From: Hydromonas duriensis
GTDB lineage: Bacteria; Pseudomonadota; Gammaproteobacteria; Burkholderiales; Burkholderiaceae
Direction: 5' to 3'
DNA length: 64,000 bases
Assembly (NCBI RefSeq): GCF_004363775.1
Contig: NZ_SNZE01000001.1
Location: forward strand, 168,860 to 232,859
In this document: positions 7,014 through 48,910 of the stretch, piece by piece
Numbering within the stretch: position 1 is the first letter of the stretch
Layout: every line of letters begins with the position of its first letter
The notes under the pieces: model-generated
The model's input: only the letters and a program-made list of their open reading frames with translations
Databases searched by the model: none
Told to the model about the DNA's origin: nothing
Made by a program: the position numbers and the translations under genes

Positions 7014-8381
7014 TTAACGCTGTTGATTCATCAATTCTTCAAATGCGACCGCTTTGGTTGAAACGCTGGCTTGAGATAATGCCCAAGTGACAACATTGTC
7101 TTCCATTGTGACCGCTTCCACTTCAGCCATGCGAGCGGCATCTGTTTTGTACCATTTGATGAAGCCTTTTGGATCCTCGTACGCTTGAGCGATGGTTGCA
7201 ATTTGTGCATCAACTTGTTCAGAGTTGGCACGCAATTCGTGTGTTTTAACCAAGCCTGCAATCAACAAACCTAAACGAACTCGGCGTTCAGCGCGGTCTT
7301 TGAAGATGTCAGCAGGCAACGCCATTTTGTCATCAACAGGAATGCCGCGTGCGCGCAAATCTGAGCGGGCGTTATCCTGCAAGCGTTCAATATCCTCATT
7401 AACCAACGCTGTTGGCACATCAAATGAAACGGCAGACAAAAGCGCGTCCATGACGTTGCTTTTGGTCATTGCTTTGGTGCGCTGAGCAATTTCGCGCTCT
7501 AAATTGGCTCTGATGTCAGTTTTCATCTTTTCAACATCGCCATCAGGTACGCCAAGTGATTTGGCAAATGCGCTATCCAACTCTGGTAATTTTGGAGCGG
7601 CTACATTTTTGACGGTCACAGTGAACTGAGCTGTTTTGCCTGCAACATCTTTACCGTGATAATCCTCTGGGAATGGCAAGTCAAAAGCACGAGACTCGCT
7701 TGCTTTTAAGCCTTCAATTGCAGTTTCAAACTCAGGCAGCATGCGCCCTTGACCTAAAACGAAAGGATAGTCTTGAGCAGAACCACCCGCAAAAGCCACG
7801 CCGTCGATTTTACCTTCAAAGTCAATCGTGACTTGGTCGTCTTTGGCTGCTGCTTTATCAGCTGTCTCATACGATACGCGTTGTTGACGCAATACATTCA
7901 AAGTGCGGTCAATGTCGGCCTCGGTGACATCACATTCTGCTTTTTCAATTTTGACACCGCTTAAGTTGACATCGCCAACTTCTGGGTAGACTTCAAAAGT
8001 CGCTTTGAACGTCAATTCGCCATCTGTACCTTTTGTTTCGCTTGGCTCAATGTTTGGCATGCCCGCAATGCGCAGTTTATCAGCATCAGCTTTGGCCGCA
8101 AATGCTTCGCCAACCTTATCGTTTAAAGCTTCCCAAGAGGCTTGTTGACCGTACATCTGCTTAACGCGTGACATAGGAACTTTGCCTGGGCGGAAGCCGT
8201 CGATTTTTACAGTCTTAGCGATTTTTTGTAAGCGCTTCTCAGTCGCTGCATCAATGGATGCTGTGCTAACAACGATATCAAATGAACGAGTCAATGAAGG
8301 CGTCATGACGGGTGCAGGCGTATCAACTGCAGGCGTAGCCGCTTGTGCTTCGTTTACAATCTCTTGAGTTTCATTTGTCAT
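7014..8381 (-). CDS. tig: Trigger factor, ribosome-associated chaperone and peptidyl-prolyl isomerase
   Basis: 455 residues. The ribosome-binding domain carries the signature GFRPGKVPMSRVKQMYG. The central FKBP-type domain (DQVTIDFEGKIDGVAFAGG, FPEDYHGKDVAGK) and the long helical C-terminal domain follow in the usual order. The frame extends upstream, but ATG 8381 has AAAGGG eight bases before it and begins a normal cytosolic protein; the longer version would add a spurious hydrophobic segment. It has an Ala/Thr/Pro-rich tail of about 30 residues before the conserved domain, which is not usual. The gene lies directly after tRNA-Leu. The usual partners clpP, clpX and lon do not follow; a terminator and olsB do. 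Confidence 0.95.
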   Translation of the reverse strand: MTNETQEIVNEAQAATPAVDTPAPVMTPSLTRSFDIVVSTASIDAATEKRLQKIAKTVKIDGFRPGKVPMSRVKQMYGQQASWEALNDKVGEAFAAKADADKLRIAGMPNIEPSETKGTDGELTFKATFEVYPEVGDVNLSGVKIEKAECDVTEADIDRTLNVLRQQRVSYETADKAAAKDDQVTIDFEGKIDGVAFAGGSAQDYPFVLGQGRMLPEFETAIEGLKASESRAFDLPFPEDYHGKDVAGKTAQFTVTVKNVAAPKLPELDSAFAKSLGVPDGDVEKMKTDIRANLEREIAQRTKAMTKSNVMDALLSAVSFDVPTALVNEDIERLQDNARSDLRARGIPVDDKMALPADIFKDRAERRVRLGLLIAGLVKTHELRANSEQVDAQIATIAQAYEDPKGFIKWYKTDAARMAEVEAVTMEDNVVTWALSQASVSTKAVAFEELMNQQR

Positions 8382-8469
8382 TTGGGTAACCCTTTGGTGT
8401 GTATACAGTGTTGTTAACATCGTCAATAACACCAAAACAATAAAAAATTGATTTGATGTCATTAAATTG

Positions 8470-8557
8470 TGGTGCGAAGGAGGGGACTCGAACCCCTACA
8501 CCTGTTTAGGGCGCCAGGACCTAAACCTGGTGCGTCTACCAATTTCGCCACCCTCGC
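8470..8557 (-). tRNA. tRNA-Leu, anticodon UAG
   Basis: Reading the minus strand, GCGAGGG (8551-8557) pairs with CCTTCGC (8474-8480) as acceptor stem. The anticodon stem CCAGG/CCTGG encloses loop TTTAGGT with anticodon TAG, a long class II variable arm follows, and the T-arm shows GGTTCGAGTCC. The 3' CCA is encoded (complement of 8470-8472). It lies 88 bp upstream of tig on the same strand. Confidence 0.96.
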
Positions 8558-8771
8558 TGGTGTATTAAAGCATTTTTATCTCGTGCCTTAAAACCGAAAA
8601 CGCGTATTGTACTGTATTGTGCGAGTACTGTAAAATCCAATTGCATTTCTTTGCACAAGATGTGTTTTAAAAACGTCTTGTTATGCTTTATGTGGTGCTG
8701 TCATCGAGCTATAGCAGGCTTTTCGGCGGCGATTGTGTAGGGTCATTCCATCTTAGAAAGTGAATCGTCCA

Positions 8772-9173
8772 ATGAGTCAAGATAAAACAAATTTACGTGA
8801 GCGTTTAGGTGCTTTGGCCTATCAAGTGACTCAAGAAAAGGCCACTGAAAGGCCCTTTAGCAGTGATTTTGCAGAGCGTTGGTCGGATGGCGTGTACCGT
8901 TGCGTGGTATGTGATACGGCTCTGTTTGACTCTCATCACCAATTTAATGCGGGTTGCGGTTGGCCGAGCTTTGATGCGCCTATGGCGGTTGACGCGGTGA
9001 GTGAGCAGCGAGATGTGTCGCATGGCATGATTCGAACAGAGGTGGTGTGCCACAATTGTGGTGCGCATTTGGGGCATGTTTTTCCAGATGGACCACCACA
9101 AACCACAGGTTTGCGCTATTGTATCAATGGGGTGGCTTTGAAGTTTTTAGCAAACAAGGACATGGGGGATTGA
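8772..9173 (+). CDS. msrB: Peptide-methionine (R)-S-oxide reductase MsrB
   Basis: 133 residues, a single MsrB domain. The two zinc-binding CxxC pairs are Cys44/Cys47 (CVVC) and Cys93/Cys96 (CHNC). The catalytic Cys117 sits in [11 protein letters not shown], with Gly where most homologues have Ser. GWPSFDAP and [12 protein letters not shown] form the substrate pocket. It reduces the R epimer of methionine sulfoxide in proteins. ATG 8772 is preferred over the in-frame GTG at 8760, which has no spaced ribosome binding site. The 112 bp to yciB hold no clear terminator. This is a cytosolic form without signal peptide. Confidence 0.93.
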
Positions 9174-9285
9174 AACGAGGTAGAATGCCCATAGTTATCA
9201 TTTATTATATTAAGTAAGACCGTGTTTGAGACGCGGTCTTGTTCTTTTTTGAACTCTTTTAGAAACTCTTACAGACATACAAATA

Positions 9286-9822
9286 ATGAAAGCACTCATT
9301 GATTTTTTCCCGATTGTTTTGTTTTTTCTTAGTTATAAGTTAACAAACGATATGTTTTTGGCAACAGGTGTTGCAATGGCATCAACGGCTGTGCAGATGT
9401 TGTTGATGAAATGGAAAAAAATTCCCATTCAAATCATGCATTGGATGAGTTTGGTGCTGATTGTGGTTTTAGGCAGTATGAGTATCTATTTTCATGAAAC
9501 GATTTTTTTGAAGTGGAAATTCAGTGTGCTTGAATGGACCATGGGTGCGGCAATTTTAATCGGACAGTATGTGTTTAACAAAAACATGCTGAAAATTTTG
9601 CTTGGGCATGAGCTGCATTTGTCTGATGAGGCTTGGAAAAAATTTGGATTGATGTGGGCTGGTTTTTTTATTTTTTTAGGAACACTGAATATTTATATTG
9701 CGTATAACTTTTCAGATGATGTGTGGTTTAACTTTAAGTTGTACGGCAGTTTAGGCTTGATTTTGGTTTTTGCTATTGTGCAAGAGGCTTGGTTATCTAA
9801 ACAATTACCCAAGGATGAGTGA
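9286..9822 (+). CDS. yciB: YciB/IspZ family inner-membrane septation protein
   Basis: 178 residues with about five hydrophobic segments. The N-terminus KALIDFFPIVLFFLSYK and the later motif EWTMGAAILIGQYVFNKNM are characteristic of the YciB (intracellular septation protein A) family, which affects cell envelope and division. The stop codon overlaps the following bolA start (TGATG), indicating translational coupling. msrB-yciB-bolA-parvulin is a familiar neighbourhood in Burkholderiales. Confidence 0.93.
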   Translation: MKALIDFFPIVLFFLSYKLTNDMFLATGVAMASTAVQMLLMKWKKIPIQIMHWMSLVLIVVLGSMSIYFHETIFLKWKFSVLEWTMGAAILIGQYVFNKNMLKILLGHELHLSDEAWKKFGLMWAGFFIFLGTLNIYIAYNFSDDVWFNFKLYGSLGLILVFAIVQEAWLSKQLPKDE

Positions 9823-41966: not shown

Positions 41967-42689
41967 ATGGCGATGATTCGATCGGCTATTTTTATTGTAT
42001 GTGTCGTCTTGTGGACGATTCCATTTTCAATGTTATGTATGTTAACGGCGGTATTGCCGTACCGCTATCGATATGCGTTTACGTCGATTTGGAACCGAGT
42101 GACGATTTTTGCGGCGCGTTGGATTCTTGGTATTCGTTATGAAGTCCGCGGGATGGATAACCTCCCACCGAAAGGCTCGGGGGCTGTGGTCTTGTCGAAA
42201 CACCAGTCTGCTTGGGAAACCATTTTTTTATTGTATGCGCTTGGTAATCCGCTCTGTTTTGTGTTTAAGCGAGAATTGTTGTGGGTGCCTTTTTTTGGTT
42301 GGGGTTTGGGTTTATTGCGCATGGTAGCCATTGACCGCAGTTCAGGTGTGGATGCGTTTGAACAGACTGTGACACAAGCGCGAGTACGCTTATCCGATGG
42401 TGTGTGGATGATTATGTTTCCTGAAGGCACTCGCATCATGCCAGGTGCGTCGAGTAAATTCAAAACTGGCGGCGCGCGCTTGGCAACGGCATTAGAAGCA
42501 CCCATTATTCCAATTGCGCATAATGCAGGGGAATGTTGGCCTAAAAAGCCATGGGTCAAGCGTGCAGGCAAAGTGACGGTTTCAATTGGACCGATGATTC
42601 ATTCTAAAGGTCGTGAGGTGATTGATGTTCATAACGAGATGGTGACGTGGATTCAAACCGAAATGAAACGCTTGCCGAAAGCGTGCTAA
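41967..42689 (+). CDS. plsC: 1-acyl-sn-glycerol-3-phosphate acyltransferase
   Basis: 240 residues. One or two N-terminal hydrophobic segments are followed by the acyltransferase motifs: KHQSAWE (the HX4D-type active site with Glu, a common betaproteobacterial variant), FKRELLWVPFFGWGL, FPEGTRI and a late PIIPIAHNAG. It acylates lysophosphatidic acid to phosphatidic acid at the inner membrane. The gene precedes a YgjP-like peptidase by 52 bp, a common pairing in Burkholderiales. A role as OlsA, partner of the OlsB-like protein at 6 kb, is possible but not indicated. Confidence 0.93.
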   Translation: MAMIRSAIFIVCVVLWTIPFSMLCMLTAVLPYRYRYAFTSIWNRVTIFAARWILGIRYEVRGMDNLPPKGSGAVVLSKHQSAWETIFLLYALGNPLCFVFKRELLWVPFFGWGLGLLRMVAIDRSSGVDAFEQTVTQARVRLSDGVWMIMFPEGTRIMPGASSKFKTGGARLATALEAPIIPIAHNAGECWPKKPWVKRAGKVTVSIGPMIHSKGREVIDVHNEMVTWIQTEMKRLPKAC

Positions 42690-42741
42690 CGTGTTGTTTT
42701 ATTTGTTTAAAGATGTGTGCAAAATTCCATAGGAGAAATGT

Positions 42742-43671
42742 TTGAGTCGCTTGCGTCAGTGGTTGAACCAGTTGCAATTATCCCTGTTTGGCGATGATGA
42801 GCATACTTCGCCATCTCAACCCAAGCCTTTAAATCAAACACGATTGGTAAAACCATCGCCTCGCCCATCTCCAACATTTCCAACATCCCCCACGCAACCG
42901 CTTGCCAAAAAGCCCAGTCAACCTGCGGCGCGTCCAGCCAACGTGCGCGTGGCGCAGTTGGGCTCTCATCAAGTTCCCTATACGATTGAACGTGTGCGCC
43001 GCCGCACGGTTGGCTTATTGGTTGATGGTTCGGGTTTACGGGTGCGCGCCAGCCACGCCGTGACACTGGCTGACATTGAACGGATTGTACAAGGCAAAGC
43101 CGATTGGATACTGCGCAACTTGCACAAAATGCAGAATGCTGCACCAGCTCGTAGCTTTGTGCCTGATTTAAATGTCAATGAAGGGGATGTGTTACCCATT
43201 CTGGGTCGTCAAGTACAAGTTCGTTGGTCAACGCAGGCTGCGAAAAAAATAGATGCAGACCAGTGGTGCGCCCAACAGTTGACAGCAGAACACCCCATCC
43301 TAGAACTGCCCGATGTTGTACCTGCAAAACGCGAACAAACCGTCGTCGACGCGTTGACCGCTATTGTATTGGCGTATCTGTGCCAGCAGGCTCGGCACTA
43401 TGCACAGACGCATCACCTGCGCTATCGCGTCATTGTGCTGTCCAATGCGAAAACGCTATGGGGTACGTGCCGCAGCGACGGTACATTGCGCTTGAATTGG
43501 CGACTGGTGTTTTTAGATACCACACTTGTGGATTATGTATTAGCACATGAGTTATCACATACGGTGCACATGAATCACAGCCGATTGTTTTGGCATCAAG
43601 TGGCTCAACTGTGCCCTGATTATAAAGAACGAGTGAAACGGCTTAAGCAATACAATCTGCGTGCGGTTTGA
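42742..43671 (+). CDS. YgjP-like (DUF45) zinc metallopeptidase domain protein
   Basis: 309 residues. The first 75 or so are low-complexity, rich in Pro, Ser, Gln and Lys. The YgjP-like domain follows with LSNAKTLWGTCRSDGTLRLNW and the zinc motif HELSHTVHMNHSRLFW (HExxH with a later His). The start is TTG 42742, supported by AGGAG six bases upstream; the ATG at 42738 is in another frame and stops after 19 codons. The related E. coli protein YgjP is a putative zinc peptidase of unclear role. It follows plsC closely. Confidence 0.88.
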   Translation: MSRLRQWLNQLQLSLFGDDEHTSPSQPKPLNQTRLVKPSPRPSPTFPTSPTQPLAKKPSQPAARPANVRVAQLGSHQVPYTIERVRRRTVGLLVDGSGLRVRASHAVTLADIERIVQGKADWILRNLHKMQNAAPARSFVPDLNVNEGDVLPILGRQVQVRWSTQAAKKIDADQWCAQQLTAEHPILELPDVVPAKREQTVVDALTAIVLAYLCQQARHYAQTHHLRYRVIVLSNAKTLWGTCRSDGTLRLNWRLVFLDTTLVDYVLAHELSHTVHMNHSRLFWHQVAQLCPDYKERVKRLKQYNLRAV

Positions 43672-43807
43672 AGCAAGCGCAGGAATCATATGCTTTAAAC
43701 AATATTTACAAAATTATTTTGGGCGTTCGCTTGGTCATCCCGTTTGCCATTATTTGAAGCAAAAAGGAAGTTATTTAGCTTACATTACTGTTTTTATGGG
43801 AGCTTTA

Positions 43808-45346
43808 ATGAGCAATTTAATACAGAAATCTGGTGGCTTGTATGTTTTTTTGCAACAAAGCATTAGTGACAATGAGGTGACCAGCAGTGCTTCATACGAA
43901 CAACTTTTTAATGACCTTAGAAAAAAATGGAGAAGGTATGACAAAATTTCATTATCTAAATGTCTTCTTGAGTATATTTATCAGACTAAAAATGCGCGAA
44001 AAGATATCAGCATGACTTTTGTGACAGCAACATTATTGCTATGGGTCATATCGGATACTTATAAACAAAAAGATATCCAACCCGTCACATCTGATAAAGC
44101 TTTGAAACTTCAGAATGCTCTTTGGCTCTTAAATTCACACACATCAATAAAAACGTTGCAGCACAAAAATATAGCCTTGCTTTTACGTAATATGATTTTT
44201 CAGCAGCATACTTTGCAGTTTGACTTGATTAGAACAAATTTTGCAAGGCAATGGATTATTTTTAGTGGGCTGGATGTTTCGAGTAATCTTCGTAATAGTT
44301 TTGAAGAAAAAACAGGGTTGAGCGTGGAGGACAGTTTGCTCGTTGTTTTGTTTTTTTCTTTGGTTTCTAAAATGTTGGAAAAAAACTTTAATCAATGTCA
44401 CAGTGTAATAATGCAGCTAATCAATCAACACGAAAATTTATTTTCAACTATGTTTGCTTTTAGAGATAATAAGCTTCACTCTAAAATTGTAGTCCCAGAT
44501 AAGCCTTCTGCGATTTATGCGCCAACGCCATTTGTCAAATATCCTTTGGTTGAAATTCAAGGTATTCCTTTTGTGGTTCATCCTCAATTGGCATTTCGAA
44601 CTGCTGAAATGTTTGGTTATCGTACAGTTCATGAGCATGTTTCAAGTGAGTGGCAAAATTTAACCAAATTAATTGAGGGTTATGCCAACGACAGAGCAAA
44701 ACAAGTGTTCAGTGATAATGCACGTGTAGACTCGAAAGTGCGGGATTTAATGGGAGGTGGTGCAGCTGAAAACTGTGATCAGGTTATATTGTTAGATGAT
44801 TGCATTTTATTGGTTGAGATTAAATCTAGGCATGTTAGAGAAGATAAGCAAGTTTCAGTCAATGAAACTCATTTAGAAGGTGTTTTTAATGATATTGTCT
44901 TAAAAAGCCATAATCAACTTTTTGAAACACATCAAGCATTGCAGTCTAATAAGGTAATCACGCCAAGTAAAAAAGTATATTGGTTTATTGTGACAAACGA
45001 TGAGTATAACTTTGCTAATGGAGGGCTTTTTAATGAATTTTACCCTCAATTAAAACAAAAACGAGCAAGCTTAGGTCGCTCGCCAGCAGGAGTTTTCGTT
45101 CTAACTTTGGACGAGTATGATATTTTAATCGATGCTCATCACGCTAACAAAATTGACTTGAAGACTTTTTTGTCAGAACTCTGCTTAAAGACTGAAAGTT
45201 TAAGTGCTGATTCTAGATTTAGCATCTTAGAATATGGAGACGAGGATTTAAAAAATCACTATCCAGAGCATTTGAAGTCAAATTTTAAAGAAGCATGGGG
45301 TAGAATGCATTCGTGGATGAAAGATTTTTTGCCAAGTGCATCCTGA
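43808..45346 (+). CDS. Orphan protein with a PD-(D/E)XK nuclease-like motif, AT-rich
   Basis: 512 residues from ATG 43808, chosen because GGGAG lies five bases upstream; the frame extends to 43661 and overlaps the previous gene. I do not recognise the family. Residues 1-230 look helical. Around residues 311-345 GGGAAENCDQVILLDD is followed by ILLVEIKS, the Asp...GluXLys arrangement (Asp324, Glu337, Lys339) of restriction-endonuclease-fold enzymes, and LKSHNQLFETHQAL about 30 residues later could supply the helix with a Gln. No membrane segments or helix-turn-helix are seen. Base composition and codon use are clearly more AT-rich than in the neighbours, suggesting transfer. It sits alone between housekeeping genes. 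Confidence 0.7.
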   Translation: MSNLIQKSGGLYVFLQQSISDNEVTSSASYEQLFNDLRKKWRRYDKISLSKCLLEYIYQTKNARKDISMTFVTATLLLWVISDTYKQKDIQPVTSDKALKLQNALWLLNSHTSIKTLQHKNIALLLRNMIFQQHTLQFDLIRTNFARQWIIFSGLDVSSNLRNSFEEKTGLSVEDSLLVVLFFSLVSKMLEKNFNQCHSVIMQLINQHENLFSTMFAFRDNKLHSKIVVPDKPSAIYAPTPFVKYPLVEIQGIPFVVHPQLAFRTAEMFGYRTVHEHVSSEWQNLTKLIEGYANDRAKQVFSDNARVDSKVRDLMGGGAAENCDQVILLDDCILLVEIKSRHVREDKQVSVNETHLEGVFNDIVLKSHNQLFETHQALQSNKVITPSKKVYWFIVTNDEYNFANGGLFNEFYPQLKQKRASLGRSPAGVFVLTLDEYDILIDAHHANKIDLKTFLSELCLKTESLSADSRFSILEYGDEDLKNHYPEHLKSNFKEAWGRMHSWMKDFLPSAS

Positions 45347-45395
45347 ATTATTTACTTTGTTTTGTATATCAGTGTATTCATCATTCAAGTCTTTT

Positions 45396-46022
45396 TCAAA
45401 ACCCTTTCGGTACTTCCCACTTCAATTTGATGCTTATCAGGCGCAAAAACACAATGACGCCGCTGGCAATCAATAAACTGAGCACGTCGTTCGCATGGAG
45501 ATGTCGCAAGCCGATGTATATCCATGAGCCTGCAAATGCACACGACGCGTAGGGGCTGCTGTCGGTTAAGAGCAAAGGCGTATCGCCGCACAAAATATCT
45601 CGAATCACGCCGCCAAAGGCTGCGCCAATCATGCCCAGCATAGAGGCAACGAAATAGGGCATGCCTGCTTCTAGGGCAACGGCGGTGCTGGTAATGGTGA
45701 ATAGCCCCAAGCCCATGGCATCAGCGACCAACATGGCGCGTCGCGAAAACACACGGTGCGTGAAGTCCATCAGCGTTCCACCGAGCAGTGAGCAAATAAA
45801 AATAGCAATCACATAATTTTGGTGTTCGACCCAATAAAAAGGGCGGCGATCGAGCAGAATATCTCGTAATGTTCCACCGCCGAAAGCCGTGACAAAGCCA
45901 ATGATGAACACGCCAATCGCATCAAACTTACGCTGTTGAGCGCGGATGAAGCCCGAAATGCAAAAGGCAATGATGCCAATGGCTTCTATGAATGGAATCA
46001 GTTTGATGACGGTTGGAAACAT
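45396..46022 (-). CDS. Trimeric intracellular cation channel family protein (YadS/YicG type)
   Basis: 208 residues with seven predicted membrane helices and an internal repeat of the family signature: GFVTAFGGGTLRDILLDRRP in the first half and GAAFGGVIRDILCGDTPLLL in the second. These prokaryotic TRIC channels conduct monovalent cations; the UPF0126 proteins of E. coli have no firm physiological role. It converges on the AT-rich orphan with only about 50 bp between them and no clear terminator. Confidence 0.93.
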   Translation of the reverse strand: MFPTVIKLIPFIEAIGIIAFCISGFIRAQQRKFDAIGVFIIGFVTAFGGGTLRDILLDRRPFYWVEHQNYVIAIFICSLLGGTLMDFTHRVFSRRAMLVADAMGLGLFTITSTAVALEAGMPYFVASMLGMIGAAFGGVIRDILCGDTPLLLTDSSPYASCAFAGSWIYIGLRHLHANDVLSLLIASGVIVFLRLISIKLKWEVPKGF

Positions 46023-46061
46023 GCTTTGCTCAGTTGTTAGGGTTAAAAGTGGGTGTTTTAA

Positions 46062-46721
46062 TTATGAGGATGCGGTGGCGGACTCGTGTCGATGCAGTAA
46101 AACCAACACGGCACCGTGTCCGCCCATTGCGGCGGGAGCAGGGCAAAAGGCCAAAACATTGTTGTTTTGCACCAGCCAATTGCGCACATTTTGTTTGAGC
46201 ACGGCATGCCCCGTTTTTGAGCCGAAACCTTGACCGTGGATGATGGATATCACGCGTGCGCCTTCGTTTATTGCCCGATATAAAAAGGCATTGGTGGCGA
46301 TGCGGGCTTCTTCGCTGGTTTGACCGTGCAAATCCATGCGTAAATCAATGACCCAATCGCCACGTTGGAGTTTTCTCAGTAATGCTTCGGGAACGCCTTT
46401 GCGCAGGTAAGTGCCCATCTCATCATTGAGAAGATGTTGCGCATCAAAGCCATCGGATAACTTGTCTTTTGCCTGTTTTTTTTGCGGGGCGACTCGCTTG
46501 ATGTCGGGCAGTTTGAATTCAGGCGCAGGATGAATGTAGCGTTGCTTGTCTTTGAGCGGGGTGACTTGTTTGACCGCCGTTTTAAACTCATTTTCCATGC
46601 GCGACTGCGCCGCCGCTTGAGCTTTTTGCGCCAATTGTTCTGCTTCGCGTTGTTTAGCTTCTTGCTTGAGTGCTTTTTGTAAGGCGTTTAAATCTGTAAG
46701 TCCGTAGGATTTGGCTTTCAT
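46062..46721 (-). CDS. Smr (MutS2 C-terminal-like) domain protein
   Basis: 219 residues. A charged, coiled-coil-prone N-terminal half (residues 10-120) precedes one Smr domain with MDLHGQTSEEARIAT, ISIIHGQGFGSKTGHAVLK and the C-terminal GGHGAVLVLLH. Stand-alone Smr proteins of this kind are related to E. coli SmrA/SmrB; SmrB cleaves mRNA at collided ribosomes. The start is ATG 46721: the upstream TTG at 46736 lies inside the trxB terminator. trxB followed by this gene is a known Burkholderiales arrangement. Confidence 0.88.
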   Translation of the reverse strand: MKAKSYGLTDLNALQKALKQEAKQREAEQLAQKAQAAAQSRMENEFKTAVKQVTPLKDKQRYIHPAPEFKLPDIKRVAPQKKQAKDKLSDGFDAQHLLNDEMGTYLRKGVPEALLRKLQRGDWVIDLRMDLHGQTSEEARIATNAFLYRAINEGARVISIIHGQGFGSKTGHAVLKQNVRNWLVQNNNVLAFCPAPAAMGGHGAVLVLLHRHESATASS

Positions 46722-46734
46722 GTGGGTGTCAGTC

Positions 46735-46759
46735 AAAAATTCCCGCCGAGGCGGGAATT
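46735..46759 (-). terminator. Hairpin with T-tail after trxB, directly before the Smr gene
   Basis: AATTCCCGCC (46738-46747) and GGCGGGAATT (46750-46759), two-base loop, with T5 on the minus strand after it. It lies only 14 bases before the Smr start codon, so it either ends trxB transcription or works as an attenuator. Confidence 0.75.
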
Positions 46760-46834
46760 AAATGTTCAAAAAAGACTAAAAAGGTTCAATGCGGTTGATG
46801 AAGCTGTCTTATGAAACTGTCATTGAAGTCAATT

Positions 46835-48118
<1,284 letters not shown>

Positions 48119-48910
48119 ATGAAAAAATCAAAAACCAGCTATAAAAAAGAGCCCATTACCTTTTCAGAAATTGGTGATGTGCGTTATTTACACTTTGGCA
48201 CGCCGTGGGTGCAAGGTGCGATGAATTTACGCAAGCCTTTTAAACTGGAGCTTGAATATGCACGCATGATGATGATGTATATTTTGTTCCTCGATGAGCC
48301 CGCACAGGTTGCACAATTGGGCATGGGCTGCGCTTCGCTGACTAAATTTATTTGGAAAAACATGCCGCGCACCAACAGCACGGTGGTTGAGCTTAATCCC
48401 GATGTGGTCAATGCCGCATACACCATGTTTAAGTTGCCGAGCGATGAGGCTCGAATCAATGTGGTGGAAGCCGATGCGGCCGAATGGGTGGAGCAACAAG
48501 CTGCGGTTTTTGATGTGCTGCAAGTTGACTTGTATGATGCGTCTGCGCGAGGCCCTGTGTGTGACAGTGTTGCGTTTTACAGTGGATGTTTCAATGCGCT
48601 CAAGGACAACGGCATGTTGACCGTGAATTTATTTGGCGACCACCCCAGTTTTGAGCGCAATATGACGCATTTAAACCAAGTGTTTGATGGTCGCGTCATT
48701 GCCATGCCTGAAATCCATGAAGGCAATCGCATTGCTTTGGCGTTCAAAGGTGCGCCTTTGGCCGTGACTTGGACCGATTTGTACGCCCGTGCGAGCGTGG
48801 TGAAAGAGGCTTACGATTTGCCCGCCAAACGTTGGGTGAGCGCGCTCAAACAGGTGGCTTTAGAAGCGGCGTCTCATCAAGGAAGTACAAAGGAACAGTT
48901 TTGCGTATGA
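48119..48910 (+). CDS. Spermidine synthase-like SAM-dependent methyltransferase-fold protein
   Basis: 263 residues. The fold is recognisable by QLGMGCASLTKFIWK (the SAM-type glycine loop, slightly unusual), VVELNPDVVNAAYTMF, and DVLQVDLYDASARGP with the acidic residues that in SpeE bind the amine. The N-terminal beta-domain of true spermidine synthases is short. No SpeD is nearby, so polyamine synthesis is not proven; many such proteins are of unknown role. ATG 48119 is chosen as the first Met of the hydrophilic protein, but no clear ribosome binding site supports it. Confidence 0.78.
   Translation: MKKSKTSYKKEPITFSEIGDVRYLHFGTPWVQGAMNLRKPFKLELEYARMMMMYILFLDEPAQVAQLGMGCASLTKFIWKNMPRTNSTVVELNPDVVNAAYTMFKLPSDEARINVVEADAAEWVEQQAAVFDVLQVDLYDASARGPVCDSVAFYSGCFNALKDNGMLTVNLFGDHPSFERNMTHLNQVFDGRVIAMPEIHEGNRIALAFKGAPLAVTWTDLYARASVVKEAYDLPAKRWVSALKQVALEAASHQGSTKEQFCV

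Follow-up and report, generated by a model that had tools for sequence, protein, structure and literature searches.

GapS1, also written GAPS1, is an antiphage protein encoded by a single gene and described on Gamma-Mobile-Trio (GMT) islands. In work credited to Mahata et al. in 2024, GAPS1 reportedly responds to a capsid protein of the phage and causes dormancy. The CRISPR-accessory nucleases Can2, Card1 and Cdn1, together with Shedu SduA, have a nuclease fold of the same type as that predicted for the protein considered here. A passage of the Phold paper (PMC12774648) presents a protein of Klebsiella phage ST437-OXA245phi4.1 as structurally GAPS1-like, and in a table of PMC10855318 the protein Upx appears under nuclease activity.

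The window analysed, a stretch of 64,000 nucleotides from Hydromonas duriensis, encodes a divergent member of the GapS1-like family in the broad sense. We read this gene as encoding an anti-phage nuclease of that family, solitary and probably gained by horizontal transfer, in which a PD-(D/E)XK effector would be released by phage from the control of a helical sensing half and would act through abortive infection or dormancy; a probability of about 0.75 is given to this reading. It draws on near full-length GapS1 homology, the active-site pattern, a C-terminal fold predicted with moderate model confidence and an accessory distribution. Single-gene defence had already been proposed in the earlier note, and it is the best guess here as well. 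The features discussed below are the following.

Positions 41967 to 43671, forward strand: conserved pair on the upstream side, an acyltransferase and a YgjP-like metallopeptidase, found together in 4 sister genomes
Positions 43798 to 43802, forward strand: GGGAG, a probable ribosome-binding site as read from the sequence, 5 nt before the ATG
Positions 43808 to 45346, forward strand: gene of the GapS1-like protein, 512 amino acids plus stop, matching NCBIfam NF047931 below its cut-off
Positions 43808 to 44638, forward strand: N-terminal helical half, residues 1-277, the putative sensing or regulatory part
Positions 44246 to 44248, forward strand: codon of R147, in the helical half
Positions 44639 to 45262, forward strand: C-terminal nuclease-type domain of the PD-(D/E)XK kind in the predicted structure, residues about 278-485
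Positions 44675 to 44677, forward strand: codon of E290, which lies in helix 278-301 and is the first of the acidic residues in the pattern
Positions 44777 to 44779, forward strand: codon of D324
Positions 44816 to 44824, forward strand: codons of E337-I-K339, the (D/E)XK motif
Positions 44915 to 44917, forward strand: codon of Q370, a conserved Gln (24 of 25 proteins) in the helix after the motif
Positions 45396 to 48910: downstream genes, namely Gly_transporter, Smr and a thioredoxin-reductase type (reverse strand) and a spermidine-synthase domain (forward strand), which stand together or almost together in three of the four sister genomes

The reading frame of 512 residues noticed earlier is present at 43808-45346. 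It starts with the ATG at 43808; a further in-frame ATG lies at 43796, and the frame is open from a GTG at 43661.

The family assignment comes from NF047931 (antiphage_GapS1), which with E = 4.1e-45 is the sole NCBIfam model to reach the protein under a limit of E up to 1. Residues 38-463 align with positions 2-443 of the 455-position profile, covering both halves, and the score of 154.5 bits is less than half of the curated cut-off of 320, which places the protein outside the strict GapS1 subfamily. A near full-length match with a score below 320 points, on sequence comparison, to a protein homologous to GapS1 over both halves yet lying outside the curated subfamily. The gene had been regarded in the earlier note as an orphan and as the best candidate here for an undescribed function. 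Both views have to be given up, because a named antiphage family matches the protein almost end to end, below cut-off; the family is thus a described one, but not a housekeeping one. The first half, which had been called helical and unassignable, is indeed helical, but it belongs to the GapS1 family and carries conserved residues of its own.

Proteins of this kind form a coherent set. In an alignment of 13 proteins including the window protein (A1), NF047931 matches all 13 and is the one NCBIfam model to match any of them at E up to 0.01. Identity of the window protein to the 12 others is only 15-19%, so that a capsid-protein trigger like that of GAPS1 is possible for it rather than probable. 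Other libraries gave partial matches. PHROG 14259, a family of unknown function, matches residues 120-412 (2.7e-9), and PADLOC gave a single weak match, PDC-M29B (E = 3.6e-4), to residues 308-383, within the nuclease core alone. No Pfam family matched the window protein at E up to 10, and sequence searches of the PDB gave no match with either the window protein or a Nitrosomonas relative as query. When the family profile was compared with PDB sequences, with matches accepted to E = 1, Can2 alone was obtained, aligned at the same motif (E = 0.29, not significant).

The residues expected of a nuclease were counted across 25 aligned GapS1-like proteins, the window protein included. K339 is Lys in all 25. 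Position 337 is Glu in 19 and Asp in 6, position 324 is Asp in 23 and Glu in 2, and position 290 is Glu in 23 and Gln in 2. The pattern [EQ]-[DE]-[ED]-K at 290/324/337/339 is therefore found in 25 of 25 proteins and its strict form, E-D-E-K, in 16. Acidic residues and a Lys arranged in this way are an active site of the PD-(D/E)XK type, which supports the assignment of E337 and K339; the residues by which this superfamily is recognized, E290, D324, E337 and K339, are all present in the window protein. The Asp...Glu-X-Lys core that had been proposed for the second half, with E337 and K339 as placed there, thus recurs across the family and exceeds a chance resemblance. Conservation extends to the helical half as well: R147 and P246 are invariant (25/25), Q133 and Q137 are each kept in 23 of 25, and R127 is kept in 19. 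The active-site pattern, R147 and P246 are shared with the GapS1 proteins that score over the cut-off.

Several sequences were kept out of the 25-row alignment. L014 and L019 are two pieces in one genome (G194), and L016 is an ORF of 246 aa in G306. Matches in G100 (L018), G413 (L035) and G942 (L079) span only part of the profile; the ORF of G100, judged by eye, resembles an AAA ATPase carrying a nuclease tail. L001-L003 and L009 repeat kept loci or the window, and the contig loci L061-L069 were mostly taken to be the same genomes as, or close relatives of, kept rows. A weakly matching subgroup has the motif version ECKT (L053, 6744-8288; L054, 7153-8625; L058, 5611-7173). It forms a separate group in the tree, and a family model of its own may be warranted.

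The predicted structures agree with a nuclease assignment for the second half. An AlphaFold2 model of the window protein, built on 9 sequences, is of low confidence (mean pLDDT 56.8, pTM 0.55), and ten-residue blocks of its nuclease region range from 37 to 83. In structural re-alignment, model residues 277-485 superpose on Nt.BspD6I with the best Z of 9.1 (172 residues, 4.2 A), to be read against a best Z of 7-8 that is typical even for models with no clear match. The 11 top rows comprise Nt.BspD6I, R.BspD6I2, Upx, FokI (6.8), Cdn1 (6.5) and Can2 (6.2); the lower rows hold further nucleases but also chains that are unrelated, acetyl-CoA carboxylase (5.9) among them. Foldseek searches with this model gave no match at E <=0.001 in the PDB or in the viral library. 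A second model was made for a relative that is 18% identical to the window protein (L068, Burkholderia sp. Leaf177, 7929-9434). This model is better (pLDDT 76.2, pTM 0.79) and superposes on Nt.BspD6I with Z 11.9. A restriction-endonuclease fold was thus found with both models, and the C-terminal domain is restriction-endonuclease-like at moderate model confidence, so that the absence of this fold, which the earlier note had named as grounds for refutation, was not observed.

The same fold invites a different reading, in which a solitary restriction-type nuclease would cut foreign DNA directly, by its sequence, modification or plasmid origin, and need no phage-protein trigger. The top solved structures do include the restriction or nicking enzymes Nt.BspD6I, FokI, HindIII and McrC. 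This fold is, however, common to a very wide superfamily, neither a methyltransferase nor an ATPase is found among the nine flanking genes scanned, and the GapS1 family is said to be phage-triggered. Direct restriction is therefore considered unlikely. For Can2, Card1, Cdn1 and SduA, Z is lower (4.4 to 7.8 over the two models, with 4.6 for the SduA structure against the window protein model), and mostly the nuclease domain alone is aligned. Shedu is absent from the PADLOC matches, and no Pfam family was found at E up to 10; both libraries presumably contain Shedu models.

Upx gives a fit over more than the nuclease domain. Residues 24-495 of the L068 model, nearly its whole length, superpose on residues 32-525 of Upx (PDB 9wuf) with Z 11.2 over 372 residues at 4.8 A, so that a GapS1-like protein fits the N-terminal half of the 1212-residue Upx chain. 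Foldseek with the L068 model also places Upx first (E 1.1e-4, probability 1.00), though the TM of this fit is 0.33 and the rmsd 10.3. With the window protein model, Z is no higher than 7.4 at 10.8 A and a different part of Upx is aligned; Upx is absent from the sequence matches. Since the strong fit is obtained with the L068 model, the Upx link is a result for that relative and a putative one for the window protein. GapS1-like proteins, the window lineage included, and the N-terminal half of the defence protein Upx might represent one ancient two-domain module of helical sensor and PD-(D/E)XK nuclease. This proposal is tentative, and we rate it somewhat below even chances.

In the phage-triggered nuclease reading that we prefer, the two halves would have distinct tasks. 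The helical N-terminal half would hold the C-terminal nuclease inactive until a phage product met it, and the nuclease would then be released. As the effector, the PD-(D/E)XK domain would cleave nucleic acid in a metal-dependent manner through E290, D324, E337 and K339, and this cleavage would stop the infected cell by abortive infection or dormancy. Nuclease activity, phage protection and N-terminal sensing are properties that we infer for the window protein.

All nine flanking genes scanned belong to ordinary Pfam families: O-antigen ligase, small multidrug resistance, acyltransferase and YgjP-like peptidase upstream, and Gly_transporter, Smr, pyridine nucleotide-disulphide oxidoreductase, a spermidine-synthase domain and SurE downstream. 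As had been stated earlier, the gene stands between housekeeping genes, and no partner gene is evident among these nine. The Pfam scan also revealed no island gene, mobile-element gene or recombinase among them. In this the locus may differ from GapS1 on its islands. Between 43400 and 45700, repeats are confined to short or imperfect ones inside the gene, with none at its ends. A scan for promoters and terminators gave 6, against 6.4 expected, and 3, against 2.1 expected.

Comparison with sister genomes shows that the GapS1-like gene occupies the junction of two gene blocks that sister species carry separately. Both flanks were located in four sister genomes. In each of the four, no transporter gene comes after the acyltransferase-YgjP pair; the flanks lie on different contigs in two of these genomes and far apart on one contig in the other two. 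Smr and TrxB are beside or near the transporter gene in three of the four. In a single-contig sister genome (G005), YgjP is followed by one small unassigned ORF call and then ScpA, and the transporter gene is followed by CorA. The ScpA homologue of the window's genome is on the same contig, about 62 kb upstream, and CorA has only a partial match elsewhere in that genome, at 30% identity. As none of the four sister genomes has the two blocks (41967-48910 in the window) side by side, gene order in the genus is fluid here. The lack of end repeats and of a mobile gene among the scanned neighbours means that the route of gain leaves no visible trace.

Base composition sets the gene apart from the rest of the window. 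Its GC content of 34.8% is the lowest among the 54 non-overlapping ORFs with 150 aa or more that the script kept, some of which are possibly not genes; the other 53 average 47.5% (SD 3.1), giving z = -4.2. GC3 is 30.2%, against 47.7%. Second in AT-richness is the window ORF at 9286-9822 (GC 35.6%), an ordinary gene of the Pfam family IspA. The codon-usage distance of the GapS1-like gene is only the third largest of 31, and the foreign signal rests therefore mainly on base composition. The sharp difference from its neighbours claimed in the earlier note holds for GC and less so for codon use, and gain by transfer, as proposed there, fits composition and distribution, with neither an insertion end nor a mobile gene visible.

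The distribution is that of an accessory gene. The GapS1 model matches in 15 of 398 related genomes (2 over cut-off), in 6 of 369 genomes of the class (1 over cut-off) and in 11 of 398 of the phylum (3 over cut-off); these three sets overlap, the genome of the window is counted in each, and a few of the hits span no more than the nuclease part or a fragment. In the five other genomes of the genus, one of them 85% complete, there was no match. This rarity bears on a further explanation, a host-domesticated nuclease of DNA repair or recombination with no role in defence. Holliday junction resolvases and Vsr use the same fold, and the position between housekeeping genes outside any island would suit such a function. 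It is at odds, however, with the empty genomes of the genus, the scarcity in relatives, the foreign composition and a GapS1 match across both halves, and we consider it very improbable.

In the tree, the window protein is on a lone branch of length 2.51, the second longest of 25. It is apart both from a Burkholderia-group clade (100/100) and from a group that includes the six proteins over the cut-off (84/90), and the fork joining the three is left open. The low score, the identity of 15-19% and the long branch suggest that its function may have drifted. Decay into a functionless remnant of a GapS1-like gene, to which the long branch could also point, is contradicted by 512 open codons, an intact active-site pattern and a plausible ribosome-binding site, and is given hardly any weight. 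We regard the gene as a real, accessory and probably working defence gene.

The GapS1-like proteins of Burkholderia, Paraburkholderia, Caballeronia and Pandoraea come from the same taxonomic family as the window's genome, share the architecture and are likewise below cut-off; they differ in forming the clade of their own that excludes the window protein. A tblastn search with the window protein retrieved nothing among plasmid records (E 1e-5) or phage records (E 0.01), and peptide-pattern scans, whose reach is limited to close relatives, found none in species genomes or viral contigs. A relative (L055) used as query retrieved 5 plasmid and 17 phage records and no viral contig. One relative is carried by the conjugative plasmid p2 of Nitrosomonas eutropha. 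Another is the protein of Klebsiella phage ST437-OXA245phi4.1, a P2-like prophage; it aligns in the same family, and its gene directly follows the integrase as cargo, unlike the window gene between housekeeping genes.

The neighbourhood survey took in ORFs of 11 relatives, and 10 neighbour proteins picked by eye were tested from six loci (L044, L046, L049-L052). Clear defence-family matches were obtained in two of the six loci and an integrase in one. In Paraburkholderia metrosideri (L049, 3428-7446), the GapS1-like gene comes after two proteins of the candidate defence families PDC-M65A/B. In L051 (1272-6968), it has upstream a Prok-E2/ThiF/JAB protein (E1-E2/JAB at 1.8e-14) and a metallo-beta-lactamase-type protein of the candidate defence family PDC-M48B (3.8e-113). 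A phage integrase adjoins the gene in L052. A weak LmuB match of a neighbour in L046 (E 2.7e-5) was discounted, as Pfam calls that protein KfrA. Homologues thus lie beside candidate defence genes in some loci, but most of the 10 neighbours have no clear defence family.

With this gene, the broad GapS1-like family gains a deep branch to which the curated model would assign no name. Matches over the cut-off number 2, 1 and 3 in the three genome sets, against 15, 6 and 11 matches of any score, a difference that points to under-counting of solitary GapS1-like nucleases when the cut-off is applied strictly. The helical-half residues R147, Q133 and Q137 provide testable points for the sensing step. 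If the module shared with Upx is real, two separately named single-protein defences would share an activation mechanism.
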